From NCBI GenBank assembly GCA_030447385.1, contig JAUJOY010000001.1:747629-811628 (forward strand): 64,000 nucleotides of DNA, in the 5' to 3' direction. A program made the translations under genes and the position numbers. This document shows, piece after piece, positions 5,270 through 12,608 of this stretch. The notes under the pieces were generated by a model. It was not told the origin of the DNA. It saw nothing but the letters and a program-made list of their open reading frames with translations, and searched no databases. Source of the stretch: Mycobacteriales bacterium. GTDB taxonomy: Bacteria; Actinomycetota; Actinomycetes; Mycobacteriales; SCTD01. Numbering within the stretch: the stretch's first letter is position 1; each line of letters begins with the position of its first letter.

Positions 5270-6535
5270 CTACCGCCGGGGCTTGGTGAGCAGCGCGGCG
5301 AGCTCGAAGTGCATCGGGTCGGTGTACGCCCAGTCGCCGCCCCAGCGAAAGCCCCACCGCTTGAAGATGTTGACGACCTCCGGGTGCATGTCCCCGGCGA
5401 TCCCCCGGTAGTTCGTCGCGGCATCCATGTCGATGGCGATGCCCCAGGTGTGCAGCGAGATGGAGTTCTCCGGGTTGCGCTCGATGAAGCGCGGGACGTA
5501 GCAGCCGTCGAAGGTCGTCAGCGTGGAGGCCAGCCCGGCGTTGACGACGTCCTGCAGCGCGCCGCGCAGCTGCGGGATCATCAGGCGGTGACAGGAGACC
5601 CGGCCCATGATCGGCAGGTTGACGGTCTGGATGTTGGCCCGCACCCACTTGGCGTCGGGCTCGATGGTGCCGTCGGGGAAGTAGCGGTAGGAGAAGGCGC
5701 CGAACGCCTTGGCGGCCTTCGCCCCCGACAGGAACGCCACCGGATTGGCGGCGGGCGGGGTCAGCAGGTCCACGACAGCCGAGTCGCCGGTGATCGCCCG
5801 GACCTTGTCCGCGAGCATCACGGGGTCCTTGTCGGCCGACAGCAGGAGGCCGGTGGCGACGGGCAGGCCGAGCACCCGGGCCGTCTCGTCGTCGAGCACG
5901 AGGTCGGCGGCAGGGATCCCGGTCGTGGCGAGCGCGCCGAGCCGCCGCGTGGCCGGGCCGCCCGGACCGGCGACCGTGATCTCCTTGCCGAGCACGAGGC
6001 CGAGCGCGGTGGCCGTCTCGTGGGCGGCCACGGCCTCGCCGCGGGCGACCGACTCCCAGACGGCGCTCGCCTCCGCCGTGCCCTCGACCGCGAAGGCCCG
6101 GAACGTGGACGGGTCGATGCCGACGGCGCGTACGTCCTTGTCGCCCACCTTCACGATCCCGGCCCGGAAGGCGAGCCCGGCTCCGGGCGGTGACAGGCTC
6201 GCCAGCTGGGCGACGGCCTCGGGGGCGAGCGGCTGCGCCGCGGTGATGAGGACGTCGGGACGCACCCGCGCGCCCAGCTCCTTGACCGGCAGCACCGCCG
6301 GCGGACGCCCCCGGTCGGGAGCGGGGGCCACGGGGGGAGCCGCGGCGGCTGCGGGAGCGGCAGGAGCCGCCGCATCGGCAACCGGAACGCCCGCCGCGGT
6401 CAGGTCCGTCGCGGCTGGTTGCGGCGTGCGGGCGGCGGGATCACCCGTAGCCACGCCTGCGAGGGCGAACAGGCCGATCGCCGCCGTCCACGCCGCCACA
6501 CGAGAGGGGGCGGGTCGAGCGGGCAGGAGGGGCAC
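5270..6535 (-). CDS. Secreted M15-family peptidase with MacB-core-like middle domain
   Basis: The C-terminal 70 residues are an M15 (VanY/D-Ala-D-Ala carboxypeptidase-like) metallopeptidase. H362 and D369 of SLHTWGIAIDMD and H409 of DPMHFE are the expected zinc ligands. The N-terminus has a basic segment followed by a hydrophobic stretch (about 13-30), a signal peptide or anchor, so it should act on the cell wall. The middle (about 90-270) has the look of the extracytoplasmic core of MacB/FtsX-type permeases (for example GIDPSTFRAF and ALGLVLGKEITV), but has no permease helices. I take GTG 6535 as the start because it precedes the signal peptide. The frame itself is open to 6742, inside whiD. 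No downstream partner gene is evident. Confidence 0.78.
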   Translation of the reverse strand: MPLLPARPAPSRVAAWTAAIGLFALAGVATGDPAARTPQPAATDLTAAGVPVADAAAPAAPAAAAAPPVAPAPDRGRPPAVLPVKELGARVRPDVLITAAQPLAPEAVAQLASLSPPGAGLAFRAGIVKVGDKDVRAVGIDPSTFRAFAVEGTAEASAVWESVARGEAVAAHETATALGLVLGKEITVAGPGGPATRRLGALATTGIPAADLVLDDETARVLGLPVATGLLLSADKDPVMLADKVRAITGDSAVVDLLTPPAANPVAFLSGAKAAKAFGAFSYRYFPDGTIEPDAKWVRANIQTVNLPIMGRVSCHRLMIPQLRGALQDVVNAGLASTLTTFDGCYVPRFIERNPENSISLHTWGIAIDMDAATNYRGIAGDMHPEVVNIFKRWGFRWGGDWAYTDPMHFELAALLTKPRR

Positions 6536-6680
6536 GGCGAGAGGGCTTCCCGGCTGTGTAGCGGCGGACGTCAGGGGCGAGGACCGTCCCGAACAGGCAA
6601 CGACGCTGGAGGGTACGTGGTTACGGACGCTTTCGCTGCTACCCCCCGCCGCTCGCGCCGCCGGCCCGCTCGCCAGAGGG

Positions 6681-6977
6681 TCAGCTGGCGGCAGCCGAAG
6701 CCGTGGTCCGGCCGACGATCGCCTCTCGTTCGTGCTCTGCAAGCCCGCCCCAGACGCCGTACGGCTCGCGCGCCGCGAGCGCGTGCGCGCGGCACTCCCG
6801 GCGCACCGGACAGCCCGCGCAGACTGCCTTGGCGGCTCGCTCGCGATTGCTCCGGTTGAGCCCGCGCTCGCCCTCCGGGTGGAAGAACAGCTCGGTGTCG
6901 CGGCCCCGGCAGCTGCCCCACAGCTGCCACTCCCACAGGTCCAGCCGTGGACCGGGAAGGTGCGAAGTGTCGGTCAT
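6681..6977 (-). CDS. whiD: WhiB-family iron-sulfur regulator (WhiD/WhiB3 type)
   Basis: This 98-residue protein is a WhiB-like [4Fe-4S] regulator that acts with the principal sigma factor. The four cysteine ligands are in SCRG, CAGCP and EC (pattern C-Xn-C-X2-C-X5-C), followed by the diagnostic turn GVWGG. The N-terminus LPGPRLDLWEWQL and FFHPEGERG match WhiB3 of mycobacteria and WhiD of Streptomyces, which is needed for spore maturation. Its place between groEL1 and guaB is also that of whiB3/whiD. ATG 6977 follows a GGGAACG-like ribosome site. The AT-richer stretch 7025-7065 upstream likely holds its promoter. Confidence 0.92.
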   Translation of the reverse strand: MTDTSHLPGPRLDLWEWQLWGSCRGRDTELFFHPEGERGLNRSNRERAAKAVCAGCPVRRECRAHALAAREPYGVWGGLAEHEREAIVGRTTASAAAS

Positions 6978-7149
6978 GGCGTTCCCGTCTCGTCGTACGG
7001 GCCAGGCGTCCGTGGACCCGTGGCCATGCTAATACCGCGTCATAGGTTGTGCAAACAGCCCCAGGGGCATCAACCGCGTTCCAGCCGGGCCGCGTCGAGT
7101 TGTGTCGGCGTGATCCCGCACTCATCCTTCGCAGGTGGAGCCGTCGCGG

Positions 7150-8097
7150 ATGGAGGTCGCGCCACCTTTGTTGCTGACGGTGGCGGCGGTGGCCCGCCGG
7201 CTCGGCATCGCGCCGGCCACGCTGCGCACCTGGGACCGCCGCTACGGCCTCGGCCCCGCTGTGCACGCCCCGGGTGCCCACCGCCGCTACTCCGTCGAGG
7301 ACCTCTCCCGGCTTCAGGCCATGCGCCGGCTCCTGCTGGAGGGGATGCCGCCCGCCGAGGCCGCCCGGGCCGTGCTCGAGCGGGACGGGCACGAGTGCGG
7401 GCCGGCGGCCCCGCTGCCCGACCGCCAGGGGCGCCTCACCCCGGCCCGCGGCGGTCCGGGCGGCCGGATGCTGGCGCTGGCAGGCGCCGGCGAGGCCGTA
7501 CGCGGACTGGGCCGCGCCGCCATGGCGCTGGACACGCCGACGGTCACCGCGATGCTGAGCGAGCAGGTGCGTCGGCACGGGGTGATCCACACCTGGGAGC
7601 ACGTGCTGTGCCCGGTGCTCGTCGCAGTGGGGGAGCGCTGGAGCGCGACCGGCGAGGGCGTCGAGGTGGAGCATCTGCTCTCGGACTGCGCGGTGACGGC
7701 GCTGCGGGCAGCCGAGCTGGACGTGGCGGAGCGCGCCGACGCACGTCCGGTCCTGCTGGCCGCCGCGCCGGACGAGGGCCATGTCCTGCCGCTGCACGCG
7801 CTCGCCGCCGGACTCGCCGAGCGCGGCCTGGCCACCCGGACCCTCGGTGCGGCGCTCCCGGCGGACGCCCTGGAGGCCGCGGTGCGACGTACCGGGCCGG
7901 CGGCGCTCTTCGTGTGGTCACAGCTGCCCGGCACGGCGGACGAGCGCGTCCTGGCGAACCTGCCGGTGATGCGCCCCCCGACCGTGGTGCTCGTCGGCGG
8001 CCCGGGCTGGGCTCCCGAGCGCCTGCCCGAGCGGGTCGGTCTCGCGGTGGACCTGACGCACGCGGTGACGCTGGTCGAGCAGGCGCTGGGAGCCTGA
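7150..8097 (+). CDS. MerR-family regulator with cobalamin-binding-like domain (CarH/LitR type)
   Basis: An N-terminal MerR winged helix (8-45, with TLRTWDRRYGL) is joined to a helical plus Rossmann module like that of the adenosylcobalamin photoreceptors CarH and LitR. W164-X9-E174-H175 reproduces the Trp-X9-Glu-His motif that covers the upper face of the cofactor. The lower-ligand motif is EGHVLP with H211, where the last Gly of ExHxxG is Pro. SQL and a later GG follow at roughly the classical spacing. ATG 7150 is preferred because AGGTGGAG precedes it. GTG 7135 is an in-frame alternative. It is divergent from whiD. Vitamin B12 or light control is inferred, not shown. Confidence 0.8.
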   Translation: MEVAPPLLLTVAAVARRLGIAPATLRTWDRRYGLGPAVHAPGAHRRYSVEDLSRLQAMRRLLLEGMPPAEAARAVLERDGHECGPAAPLPDRQGRLTPARGGPGGRMLALAGAGEAVRGLGRAAMALDTPTVTAMLSEQVRRHGVIHTWEHVLCPVLVAVGERWSATGEGVEVEHLLSDCAVTALRAAELDVAERADARPVLLAAAPDEGHVLPLHALAAGLAERGLATRTLGAALPADALEAAVRRTGPAALFVWSQLPGTADERVLANLPVMRPPTVVLVGGPGWAPERLPERVGLAVDLTHAVTLVEQALGA

Positions 8098-8141
8098 CCG
8101 CCCGGGCGCGGCGTCGGCCGGGCCGGGATCCGGCGGCGGCG

Positions 8142-8147
8142 TAGCCT
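8142..8147 (+). promoter_or_regulatory. -10 element, leaderless promoter of the helical-repeat gene
   Basis: TAGCCT lies 6 nt before GTG 8154 with no Shine-Dalgarno. Confidence 0.6.
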
Positions 8148-8153
8148 GCGCGC

Positions 8154-9104
8154 GTGACGGACCCGGAGGACCTCGCCAGTCTGCTGGCCAGCGGTGAGCA
8201 GGCCGCCTTCCACGGCAAGCCGGCGGCGGCGGTGGGCGTCCTCGAGAAGGCCGTGGTGCTCGCCCAGTCCCAGGGACGCTCCGCCGAGATGGCCGCTGCC
8301 GGGTGGCTGCTGGGCGTCGCGCTCGGCGCGGGAGGGCGGTACGGCGGTGCGCTGACCGTGCTGTCCCCGCTCGTCGAGACCGGCCGTGCCGAGGGCGCGG
8401 CCGCGGAGCACCGGCTGTTCGCGGCGCTGGCGGCGGCGACGGTCGCCAGCGTGCACCGGCAGCTGGGGCGGCACGCCATCGCCCGCGCCTCCGACCTCGA
8501 GGCGCTCGAGCTGACCGACGGGACGGGGGAGGCCGCCTTCGACGCCCAGCTCGGGCTGGCCTCGGACGCGGTCGGCCTGGAGGAGCCCGACGAGGCGTCG
8601 TCGCGGCTCGCTGCGGCCCGGGTTCTCGTCCCGGCGCGGGCCGACGAGTGGTGGCGCCAGCGGGTGCGCCTCGGCTGGGTGTCCGCCGAGGTGCAGATGC
8701 TCGAGGGGCAGGTGGACGAGGCCGTGGCCTCGGCGCTGGCTGCGGTGGAGCGGGCCGAGCATGCCCGGGCTCCCCGGCACGTCGCGAAGGGCCTGCTCAT
8801 CCTCGGCATCGCCCAGGTCTCGGGCGGCCAGCTGCCGGAGGGCTCGGACAGCTCGCTGTCCGGGGACGCCGCGGCCACCCTTCGCCGCGCCGCCACCCTC
8901 GCCGAGTCGCTCGGCACGGTCCCCCTCGTGTGGCCGGCCCGCGCGCTGCTCGGCGCGCTGGTCGCGGAGGACGACCCGGCGGAGAGCGCACGCAGCCTCG
9001 CGGCTGCGCGTACTGCCGTGCTGGCACTGGCGGCAGACCTGCCCCCGGGCGTACGCGCGGAGTGGTTGGCCCGCCCGGGGGTGGCCGCGCTGCTCGAGAG
9101 CTGA
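8154..9104 (+). CDS. TPR-like helical-repeat protein of unknown function
   Basis: I do not recognise a defined family. The 316 residues are almost entirely alpha-helical and alanine-rich, with repeated pairs of amphipathic helices (for example AAVGVLEKAVVLAQ, RYGGALTVLSPLVE, DEAVASALAAVERAEH), typical of a TPR-like scaffold. No signal peptide, membrane segment or catalytic motif is visible, so it is probably a cytoplasmic protein-interaction module. A helical-repeat conserved hypothetical protein occupies the comparable place near whiB3 in mycobacteria (from memory, not verified). It has its own leaderless promoter and stands before the pseudo-kinase/bldM pair, so a role in that regulatory group is possible but unproven. 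Confidence 0.75.
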   Translation: MTDPEDLASLLASGEQAAFHGKPAAAVGVLEKAVVLAQSQGRSAEMAAAGWLLGVALGAGGRYGGALTVLSPLVETGRAEGAAAEHRLFAALAAATVASVHRQLGRHAIARASDLEALELTDGTGEAAFDAQLGLASDAVGLEEPDEASSRLAAARVLVPARADEWWRQRVRLGWVSAEVQMLEGQVDEAVASALAAVERAEHARAPRHVAKGLLILGIAQVSGGQLPEGSDSSLSGDAAATLRRAATLAESLGTVPLVWPARALLGALVAEDDPAESARSLAAARTAVLALAADLPPGVRAEWLARPGVAALLES

Positions 9105-9215
9105 CCCTGCGCAGCACCGGCACCCGCACAACGCTCAGTCCGAGCCCTCCGGCTGCCGATGCTCTGCCCCGAGGCGGTTGCGCCGTGCACTGCTGCGTTC
9201 GGGAGGAGGTCGGAC

Positions 9216-9929
9216 ATGCACAGCCTGAGAGGCGACAGCCTGCACAGCCCTGCGCCGCCCGCTCCACGCTTTCCCGCCGGCGCGGCCGACGACCTGGCGA
9301 CGGCGTTGCTCCGCCTCGCCGACGCCGACGCCGACGCCCACGCCGACCGCCTGCACGACGGCGTCCTCCAGGCGCTCGTGGTGGCCCGCTACGCCACCGA
9401 CGCCGTAGCGCGCGGTGGCGATCCGGCGATGGCCCGCGAGGCCGTCCAGGACGCCCTGGTGGCGCTGCGCCGCACCGTGTGGCTGCTGCGCCCCCGGGTC
9501 ACCTGCGGCCTGACGGTGGCCCTCGTGGAGCTCTCGGCCCAGCGGGTGGCTGCCGGTCTGCCCGCGCCTGTCCTCGAGCTCGACCCGGACGTGGTCGCGC
9601 TGCTGACCCGGGACGCGGCCGCAGTGGCCTACCGCTTCGTCCAGGCAGTACTGGAGGAGTCCGGCTCCGACCCGGTGCAGGGGAGCCTGGAGCGCGTCGG
9701 CCGGCTCGGCGCGCTCGAGGTCGACTGCCTCGTGCGCAACCCCGCCGCCTGGTCCCTGCGGGCCGCCGCGCTGGGTGGCGGACTCGTCGTCGGCACCGAC
9801 CGGCTGCGGCTGCTGCTCCCGCTGTCCGAGGGCGCGCCTCACGACGACGACCCGTCCCGGGCGCGCTGCCCGGGGATCCCCTGTCCGACGACCGGAAGGC
9901 TGCTCCGTGACCACGGTGCTCATCTGTGA
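9216..9929 (+). CDS. Degenerate histidine kinase-like protein overlapping bldM
   Basis: The 237-residue protein has a HisKA_3-type dimerisation helix with the phosphoacceptor motif LHDGVLQAL (H47), then ALRRTVWLLRP, as in NarL-type kinases. The following domain keeps the outline of a HATPase fold: AYRFVQAVLEES stands where the N-box belongs and LRAAALGGGLVV resembles the last glycine box. The N-box asparagine and the DNGxG ATP-lid motif are missing, so it should not bind ATP normally. No membrane segment is seen. ATG 9216 follows an excellent GGGAGGAGG. Its last 23 bp overlap bldM, implying coupled translation. It may be a pseudokinase partner or phosphotransfer protein for BldM. Confidence 0.78.
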   Translation: MHSLRGDSLHSPAPPAPRFPAGAADDLATALLRLADADADAHADRLHDGVLQALVVARYATDAVARGGDPAMAREAVQDALVALRRTVWLLRPRVTCGLTVALVELSAQRVAAGLPAPVLELDPDVVALLTRDAAAVAYRFVQAVLEESGSDPVQGSLERVGRLGALEVDCLVRNPAAWSLRAAALGGGLVVGTDRLRLLLPLSEGAPHDDDPSRARCPGIPCPTTGRLLRDHGAHL

Positions 9930-10536
9930 CGACCACCGCATCGTGCGGGAGGGCCTGCGCACGTTCGTGTCGGGCGTTCCGGGTGTCGACCGGGTGGAGA
10001 CAGCGGCGAGCGGCGAGGAGGTGCTCGCGCGCTACCCGCACGAGCAGCCCGACCTCGTCCTGATGGACGTGCGCATGCCCGGGCTCGGCGGTCTCGAGGC
10101 CACCCGCCGCCTCGTCGCGGCGCACCCGGGGGCGAAGGTGCTGATGCTCACCGCTGCGGACGACCGCGACCAGGTCGCCGCCGCCGTCTCGCACGGCGCC
10201 CGCGGCTACCTGCTCAAGGACGTCAGCCACGAGGAGCTGTGCGCCGCCGTGGCCCACGCGCTGGAGGGTGACGACCTGGTCGAGCCGTCCCTGCGCCGGG
10301 CGCTCGCCGTGCGCGAGGCTGCCCGCGTCGCCCCGCCCGGCGGCCAGCTCACCGAGCGGGAGCTCCAGGTGCTCACCGGGATGAGCCAGGGTAAGAGCAA
10401 CGGCCAGATCGGCCGGGACCTCTACCTGTCCGAGGACACCATCAAGACCCATGCCCGACGGCTGTTCCGCAAGCTCGGCGTCAACGACCGCGCGCAGGCC
10501 GTGGCCCTCGGCTTCCGCCGCGGCCTGGTCAGCTAG
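9907..10536 (+). CDS. bldM: BldM-type response regulator
   Basis: This 209-residue NarL/FixJ-type regulator has a receiver domain (1-120) and a LuxR-type HTH (about 147-209). The acidic pocket is complete: D8/D9, D54 in LVLMDVRMPG, T82 and K104. The HTH segment GMSQGKSNGQIGRDLYLSED and THARRLFRKLG is close to Streptomyces BldM, which controls aerial-hypha and sporulation genes alone or as a heterodimer with WhiI. In Streptomyces BldM is regarded as an orphan without a cognate kinase. Here it starts with GTG inside a pseudo-histidine-kinase gene. The neighbours whiD and guaB support orthology. Confidence 0.93.
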   Translation: MTTVLICDDHRIVREGLRTFVSGVPGVDRVETAASGEEVLARYPHEQPDLVLMDVRMPGLGGLEATRRLVAAHPGAKVLMLTAADDRDQVAAAVSHGARGYLLKDVSHEELCAAVAHALEGDDLVEPSLRRALAVREAARVAPPGGQLTERELQVLTGMSQGKSNGQIGRDLYLSEDTIKTHARRLFRKLGVNDRAQAVALGFRRGLVS

Positions 10537-10576: not shown

Positions 10577-10990
10577 CTACCCGGGCTCCTCCGCTCCGCG
10601 GGACTTCAAGCTCTCGAAGGTCGCGTCCGCGTACCCCCGGGCGTAGTCCCAGCTGACGTAGTCCGTCGGGTCGGGGTCGTAGGCCGGCTCGTGCACCCGG
10701 ATCTGTCCGCCGCCCAGCAGGTGCACCATGTTGCCCCGGAGCAGGTCCCAGGCGAAGTAGTGCACCGCGTCGCAGTCCGCGCAGAGCACGGCCAGCCCGC
10801 GTAGGCCCCTCGGCGCCAGCAGCGTCTGGAACAGCATGAGGTCCTCGAGGTCACCGAGCACCCCGGCGTGCTCGTCCACCGGGAGCGGCGCAGGCGCCGG
10901 GGTGCCGGCGTCGAAGGCAGCCAGCTCCTGGGCCGGGTCGTCGGGATCACCGGCGAAGGGGTCCACGGGGTCCGGCGGAGGCGTCGTCAC
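10577..10990 (-). CDS. DUF5319 family protein
   Basis: A 137-residue conserved actinobacterial protein of unknown function. The N-terminus is acidic and proline-rich (about 1-40). The conserved part begins at HAGVLGDLEDLMLFQTLL and contains LCADCDAVHYFAWDLLRGNM. CADC recalls a small zinc or redox site, but only one such pair is present. It is regularly found divergent from guaB in actinobacteria, as here. The GTG start at 10990 is supported by TATCGT 6 nt upstream on the minus strand (leaderless). Nothing in the sequence reveals a biochemical role. Confidence 0.88.
   Translation of the reverse strand: MTTPPPDPVDPFAGDPDDPAQELAAFDAGTPAPAPLPVDEHAGVLGDLEDLMLFQTLLAPRGLRGLAVLCADCDAVHYFAWDLLRGNMVHLLGGGQIRVHEPAYDPDPTDYVSWDYARGYADATFESLKSRGAEEPG

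Positions 10991-11003: not shown

Positions 11004-12607
<1,604 letters not shown>

Positions 12608-12608
<1 letters not shown>

Follow-up and report, generated by a model that had tools for sequence, protein, structure and literature searches.

A degenerate HisKA_3-type histidine kinase encoded directly upstream of bldM is a candidate phosphotransfer partner of the BldM regulator

The window, by which we mean the entire stretch of 64,000 nucleotides of DNA that was analysed, belongs to an actinobacterial genome of 3.4 Mb and contains a gene for a kinase-derived protein of 237 amino acids positioned directly in front of bldM. The gene order is whiD / MerR-B12 / TPR / pseudo-kinase / bldM / guaB, and the relevant features are the following:

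6681..6977, minus strand: WhiB-family protein, probable WhiD orthologue, marking the whiD-bldM-guaB synteny
7135..8097, plus strand: MerR-type regulator carrying B12-binding domains (CarH-like), one of the genes of the conserved neighbourhood
8154..9104, plus strand: TPR-like protein, conserved upstream gene (about 67-83% identity within the family)
9203-9209: Shine-Dalgarno-like GAGGAGG upstream of the pseudo-kinase reading frame
9216..9929, plus strand: pseudo-histidine kinase (HisKA_3 DHp plus degenerate CA domain), 237 amino acids, ATG start
9342..9377, plus strand: H-box ADRLHDGVLQAL with H47 (9354-9356), D48 and Q52; HDxxxQ, NarX-type DxxxQ motif
9423..9500, plus strand: second DHp helix with a conserved R-x-x-x-W-x-L-R-P-R motif
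9501..9830, plus strand: remnant of a CA-like (Bergerat-type) domain that lacks the N-box, DxGxG, lid and GxGT and keeps the helix W179-x-x-x-x-x-A185-x-G-G
9894-9899: Shine-Dalgarno-like GGAAGG for bldM, within the pseudo-kinase gene
9907..10536, plus strand: bldM, a NarL/FixJ response regulator gene with a GTG start; intact receiver pocket, Ala at position T+1
9907..9929, plus strand: overlap of 23 bp, the pseudo-kinase stop codon lying inside bldM
11082..12608, plus strand: guaB-like gene for a product that, from its sequence, we take to be an IMP dehydrogenase; synteny marker conserved downstream of bldM

The CarH-like MerR/B12 regulator and the TPR protein (7135-9104) are found between whiD and bldM in many of the families that we read, and a light- or cobalamin-linked input into the whiD-bldM region is possible. 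On the minus strand, an exported-looking peptidase-like protein (5270-6742), presumably VanY-like as judged by eye, adjoins whiD both here and in some relatives, and an uncharacterised protein (10577-10990) conserved in several families is encoded between bldM and guaB.

The coordinates and length of the pseudo-kinase gene, the GTG start of bldM at position 9907 and the 23-bp overlap between the two genes are as the first-pass annotation had given them; the overlap is nevertheless not a family trait, since it is peculiar to this genome among the loci of its own family (f1). At the other f1 loci the two genes overlap by 4 bp (ATGA or GTGA), or, in the few cases where the start of BldM could not be fixed, the stop codon abuts the aligned BldM start. 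The ancestral GTGA overlap can still be read in another frame of the window (TGA at 9908-9910), and so can the C-terminal tail of the relatives, which ends here on GDPLSDDRKAAP (also given as LSDDRKAAP) followed by the stop codon. Because this tail is legible in a different frame, the 23-bp overlap would have come about by a net frameshift close to the 3' end; judged from these frames, it is a late event on an ancestral 4-bp state, with a sequencing error as a possible alternative cause. The arrangement supports stop-start coupling of the predicted pseudo-kinase to bldM. A chance open reading frame is ruled out by the conservation of position, frame and H-box across families.

HisKA_3 was the sole Pfam family reported for the 237-residue protein; it matched residues 46-94 with an E-value of 3.7e-4 and a score of 21.4 bits, which falls below the curated cut-off of 24 bits for this family, and no HATPase family matched at E<=10. 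Since HisKA_3 was matched in all 15 members of the protein family that were searched (best E-value 3.7e-6), the kinase ancestry is not a chance result. A search of the PDB by sequence returned chance matches only. In the own-family alignments, the proposed phosphoacceptor H47 is invariant, together with D48, Q52, R85, W89 and the RPR motif (92-94) of the second helix, which reads RRTVWLLRPR in the window protein. Mean pairwise identity reaches 0.76 and 0.68 in the two DHp helices, 0.43 in the CA domain and 0.31 in the region where DxGxG and the lid are expected. The H, D and Q residues are intact in each of the 22 H-boxes that can be read in families f1, f24, f25 and f32; the f37 copy is cut by the end of a contig.

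The ATP-competent HisKA_3 kinases encoded in the same genome carry the motifs QEALHNVVKHA...DDGCG...GQGTT. Beside them, the window protein and its homologues within the family are devoid of the N-box Glu/Asn/His residues, of DxGxG, of the lid and of GxGT (the second Gly box), and with these elements lost no autokinase activity is expected. Across families, the CA remnant has kept its W..RA..LGG helix, and the f25 homologues retain traces of the ancestral pocket (DDG and GGGTT, without an N-box), so that by their motifs they represent an intermediate in its decay. An AF2 model of the window protein (pLDDT 84.6, pTM 0.74; 15 sequences) consists of a DHp hairpin (H21-65, H70-91) followed by an alpha/beta CA-like domain. 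Its best Foldseek matches are DesK structures (E about 1e-5), the first of them being the DesK-DesR complex in the phosphatase state, a rank that does not discriminate between the states of DesK. With VIA-align, the CA domains of DesK and VraS match the model, and ChpT matches both of its domains (164 residues, 3.2 A, Z 11.5); for the modelled protein, the ChpT match indicates a common fold and is no proof of descent or function. Motif loss and a shortened lid rule out a complete ATP pocket, which we looked for and found missing in both the sequence and the model, and ATP-dependent autophosphorylation is very unlikely. Hence, the HisKA_3 helix with H47, the loss of the N-box Asn and of the DNGxG ATP lid, and the pseudo-kinase assignment built on them in the first-pass annotation were all borne out.

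The pseudo-kinase gene was found in 19 of the 41 genomes examined in a search among relatives, all 19 belonging to family f1, which includes Frankiales/Frankineae metagenome-assembled genomes. It is located directly upstream of bldM in each of the 19 f1 bldM loci recovered, two of which are contig ends where only the 3' part of the pseudo-kinase gene is visible. Within f1, the BldM proteins are 86-95% identical and the pseudo-kinases about 42-60%. A class-wide search with BldM and an extended profile revealed homologues in the same slot in families f24, f25, f32 and f37 and in part of f28. Presence beside bldM in relatives, on which the first-pass annotation had let its reading depend, is thus seen at every own-family locus and in five further families. 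At the loci read from other families, no partner gene was seen in front of bldM (79 loci read in all, including duplicates and some with short upstream DNA), and there the TPR gene, where found, adjoins bldM directly. In a phylogenetic tree, the pseudo-kinase homologues are placed on one side and the canonical kinases of the same genome on the other (support 93/92). Longer homologues carry an additional N-terminal domain that the window protein, like the rest of its genus, does not have; residues of about 5-134 in the AF2 model of one of them (L062) match GAF structures (Z 11-12), and by sequence GAF_2 was detected weakly in 1 of 15 family members.

The window BldM is orthologous to the well-studied regulator by its NarL/FixJ type and by the whiD-bldM-guaB synteny; its receiver and GerE domains are canonical, and D8, D9, D54, T82 and K104 are all present, as the first-pass annotation had stated. 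In Streptomyces, BldM works without phosphorylation (PMC4125116; PMC12632262): the D54A variant is functional, attempts to phosphorylate the protein failed and no kinase gene is adjacent (PMC4125116), and no partner kinase is known (PMC12632262). It has been proposed in a review that Val at position T+1 hinders phosphorylation of the Streptomyces protein (PMC12632262). Ala occupies T+1 of BldM in every lineage with an intact partner, and the T+1 residue of the Streptomyces type is mostly Met, Val, Leu or Gln. Helix alpha1, one of the main elements on which the kinase DHp docks in DesK-DesR (PMC5231405), is almost invariant (DDHRIVREGLRQFV) in the BldM proteins of the five partner families f1, f24, f25, f32 and f37, and it differs in orphan BldM proteins (DDSPLAREALRRAV in the Streptomyces-like locus L123).

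Wherever an intact H-box can be read (22 loci), the BldM pocket is intact as well (DD/D54/T or S82/K104, with T82S occurring once). Families f14, f7 and f9, in which we found no partner gene, possess dead BldM receivers (D54G, T82G, K104W), and T82 is lost in f6, where likewise no partner gene was found. As these partnerless lineages group with f1, f24, f25, f32 and f37 in the BldM tree (85/95), the predicted partner and the intact pocket tend to go together within this clade, in a comparison whose rows are not phylogenetically independent. The coupling has exceptions: many BldM orthologues without a partner gene have an intact pocket, those of the Streptomyces type included, and so does the partnerless f32 locus L078. 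A strict rule by which presence of the partner equals an intact pocket is thereby ruled out. Discriminating BldM columns fall into docking elements in 7 of 9 cases (p=1.3e-4 by a broad definition of these elements, 0.06 by a strict one); since a control contrast is also enriched (p=0.017), this enrichment is suggestive only. BldM pseudo-receivers in which D54 is changed to Gly and T82 and K104 are replaced were seen in f14, f7, f9 and f36 (L040-L049, L105); by its gene content, f14 is Pseudonocardiaceae-like.

We consider it about an even bet (a probability of roughly 0.5) that the window protein is a soluble, probably dimeric, ChpT/Spo0B-like phosphotransferase/phosphatase derived from a kinase and dedicated to BldM. 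Its ancestor would have been a HisKA_3-HATPase sensor kinase, probably equipped with a GAF input domain, whose gene stood immediately in front of bldM. ATP binding by the CA domain would have been lost, and the DHp helices, which bear the phosphoryl group and contact the receiver, would have stayed. The DHp domain may dock against the receiver of BldM and pass the phosphoryl group back and forth between H47 and D54, and D48 and Q52 might, in addition, hydrolyse BldM-phosphate. The gene pair has the conserved adjacency and full receiver pocket of a canonical two-component system and, judged by its sequence, lacks an autophosphorylating kinase. As the protein is not expected to phosphorylate itself, it would depend on phosphate from elsewhere. 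The donor could be another protein (the receiver of a hybrid kinase, a free receiver or a HisKA_3 kinase as partner), or the phosphate could reach it from BldM that small molecules have phosphorylated; this last route would have deactivation as its net result. Three proteins of the genome are conceivable donors: a hybrid kinase of the HAMP-GAF-HisKA-HATPase-REC type, a CheA-like Hpt protein and a weak Hpt next to a receiver; the search of the genome for a dedicated phospho-donor linked none of them to BldM. At L130:1385-6355 (contig C13 of genome G000), a frame with about ten HAMP domains followed by GAF, HisKA, HATPase and receiver domains adjoins a gene for a separate receiver protein; we presume this pair to be OsaA/OsaB-like.

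The kept HDxxxQ motif supports phosphate chemistry on BldM, although its DxxxQ part means that a pure phosphatase has to be weighed. Here, BldM-phosphate formed from acetyl phosphate or by cross-talking kinases would be dephosphorylated by the NarX/DesK DxxxQ mechanism and H47 would be a relic. D48 and Q52 are invariant, DxxxQ is the phosphatase motif of HisKA_3 proteins (PMC3510030), the isolated DHp domains of NtrB and EnvZ act as phosphatases (PMC3510030), the first Foldseek match is the phosphatase-state complex, and no donor kinase would be necessary. However, the His residue is dispensable for the phosphatase activity of HisKA_3 proteins (PMC5231405; PMC12632262) and yet invariant in 22 of 22 H-boxes, which favours phosphotransfer; moreover, f28 lost its His and Gln residues together, and the Foldseek rank cannot separate the states. 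We therefore regard an exclusive phosphatase role as rather unlikely.

Much the same standing applies to a partner that acts without phosphate, its DHp/CA scaffold binding BldM, alone or with another protein, and thereby controlling dimerisation or stability, with the GAF domain, where present, sensing a signal. The f28 family speaks for it: in five homologues (L084, L086, L087, L088, L090) both His and Gln are gone, the H-boxes reading ELCDNVGEAL, TLLDGMGEAL and ALRETVGGAL or, in two cases, having the His position deleted, but the gene has stayed beside bldM. The BldM pocket is altered at three of these five loci (two with T82A, one with D54G and T82S) and intact in two. His is consequently not needed everywhere, and a phosphate-independent role is indicated at least in f28, where the protein can outlive phosphate chemistry; a binding role may therefore exist beside such chemistry. 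The W..RA..LGG helix kept across families fits such a scaffold, as does the fact that Streptomyces BldM functions without phosphate (PMC4125116). Against it as a general explanation, few residues are as constrained as H, D and Q in f1, f24, f25 and f32, and the BldM pocket is kept there. Least probable, and improbable in itself, is that the protein is the phospho-acceptor half of a heterodimeric kinase whose ATP-competent HisKA_3 subunit pairs via the DHp domain and phosphorylates H47 in trans to form the normal BldM sensor; the genome does encode several such kinases, and the scheme would explain a kept DHp and a dispensable CA domain, but these kinases have their own response regulator genes nearby and no specific partner kinase was found.

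The phosphotransferase/phosphatase reading agrees with the first-pass annotation in its pseudo-kinase, its coupling to bldM and its phosphorylation-competent receiver, and the sequence data support the likely phospho-acceptor or BldM-binding role that it had suggested. The new input into BldM that it had suggested may exist in the lineages described here; since BldM differs in them (Ala at T+1, canonical alpha1), it need not be a hidden input into Streptomyces BldM. We found no partner gene for BldM described in the open-licence literature that we searched. BldM is the textbook orphan and phosphorylation-independent regulator of Streptomyces, and the relic of a kinase whose phosphotransfer box is intact, its gene overlapping bldM in several actinobacterial families, is a concrete candidate partner for BldM; a regulator thought to work alone and without phosphate may thus have a phosphate-handling partner in several actinobacterial groups. 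Side by side, the loci show four states: a partner that has its His, a partner that has lost it, an intact pocket where there is no partner and a dead pocket where there is none. This natural series lets one see how a two-component regulator turns into an orphan. More tentatively, BldM may have been, or in these lineages may remain, the regulator of a true phosphorelay; the sensor kinase of its operon would have turned by decay into a phosphotransferase like ChpT and would supply BldM with phosphate. If so, the orphan BldM of Streptomyces and the Pseudonocardiaceae-like pseudo-receiver would be alternative results of a receiver set free from its partner, and a ChpT/Spo0B-like device would have been reached independently from the HisKA_3 class.

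Among known systems, Streptomyces BldM is an orthologous regulator in the same whiD...bldM...guaB neighbourhood, but it has no adjacent partner gene, has Val or another bulky residue at T+1 and possesses an altered alpha1. DesK, NarX, VraS and DosS share with the window protein the DHp family, the HDxxxQ box and a NarL-type partner regulator; unlike them, it lacks the N-box, DxGxG, lid, GxGT and a membrane sensor. Pseudo-histidine kinases of the DivL/RetS type are also kinase-derived and wired into the control of a regulator. DivL is without His, in contrast to the window protein, and RetS acts on another kinase. Spo0B of the Bacillus sporulation relay resembles the role proposed here as a kinase-like dimeric DHp phosphotransferase in a developmental pathway; it is of a different DHp class and its donor, Spo0F, is known, and Spo0B families gave no sequence match to the 237-residue protein (HisKA_3 only at E<=10). 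Its absence from the VIA-align matches listed does not speak against a resemblance. ChpT of Caulobacter and Brucella (PDB 4FPP/4FMT/4QPK) is likewise a soluble protein with a DHp and a CA-like domain, no usable ATP pocket and a kept reactive His; it does not bind ATP, its lid being replaced (PMC3433190). It acts on a DNA-binding developmental regulator, as BldM also is, and the model aligns with it over 164-167 residues, yet it represents another DHp class, its Pfam family does not match the window protein at E<=10 and its donor, CckA, is known. For chpT, no coupling to the gene of its regulator is known. The best reading of the window protein is that of a HisKA_3-derived counterpart of ChpT and Spo0B paired with an established developmental regulator.
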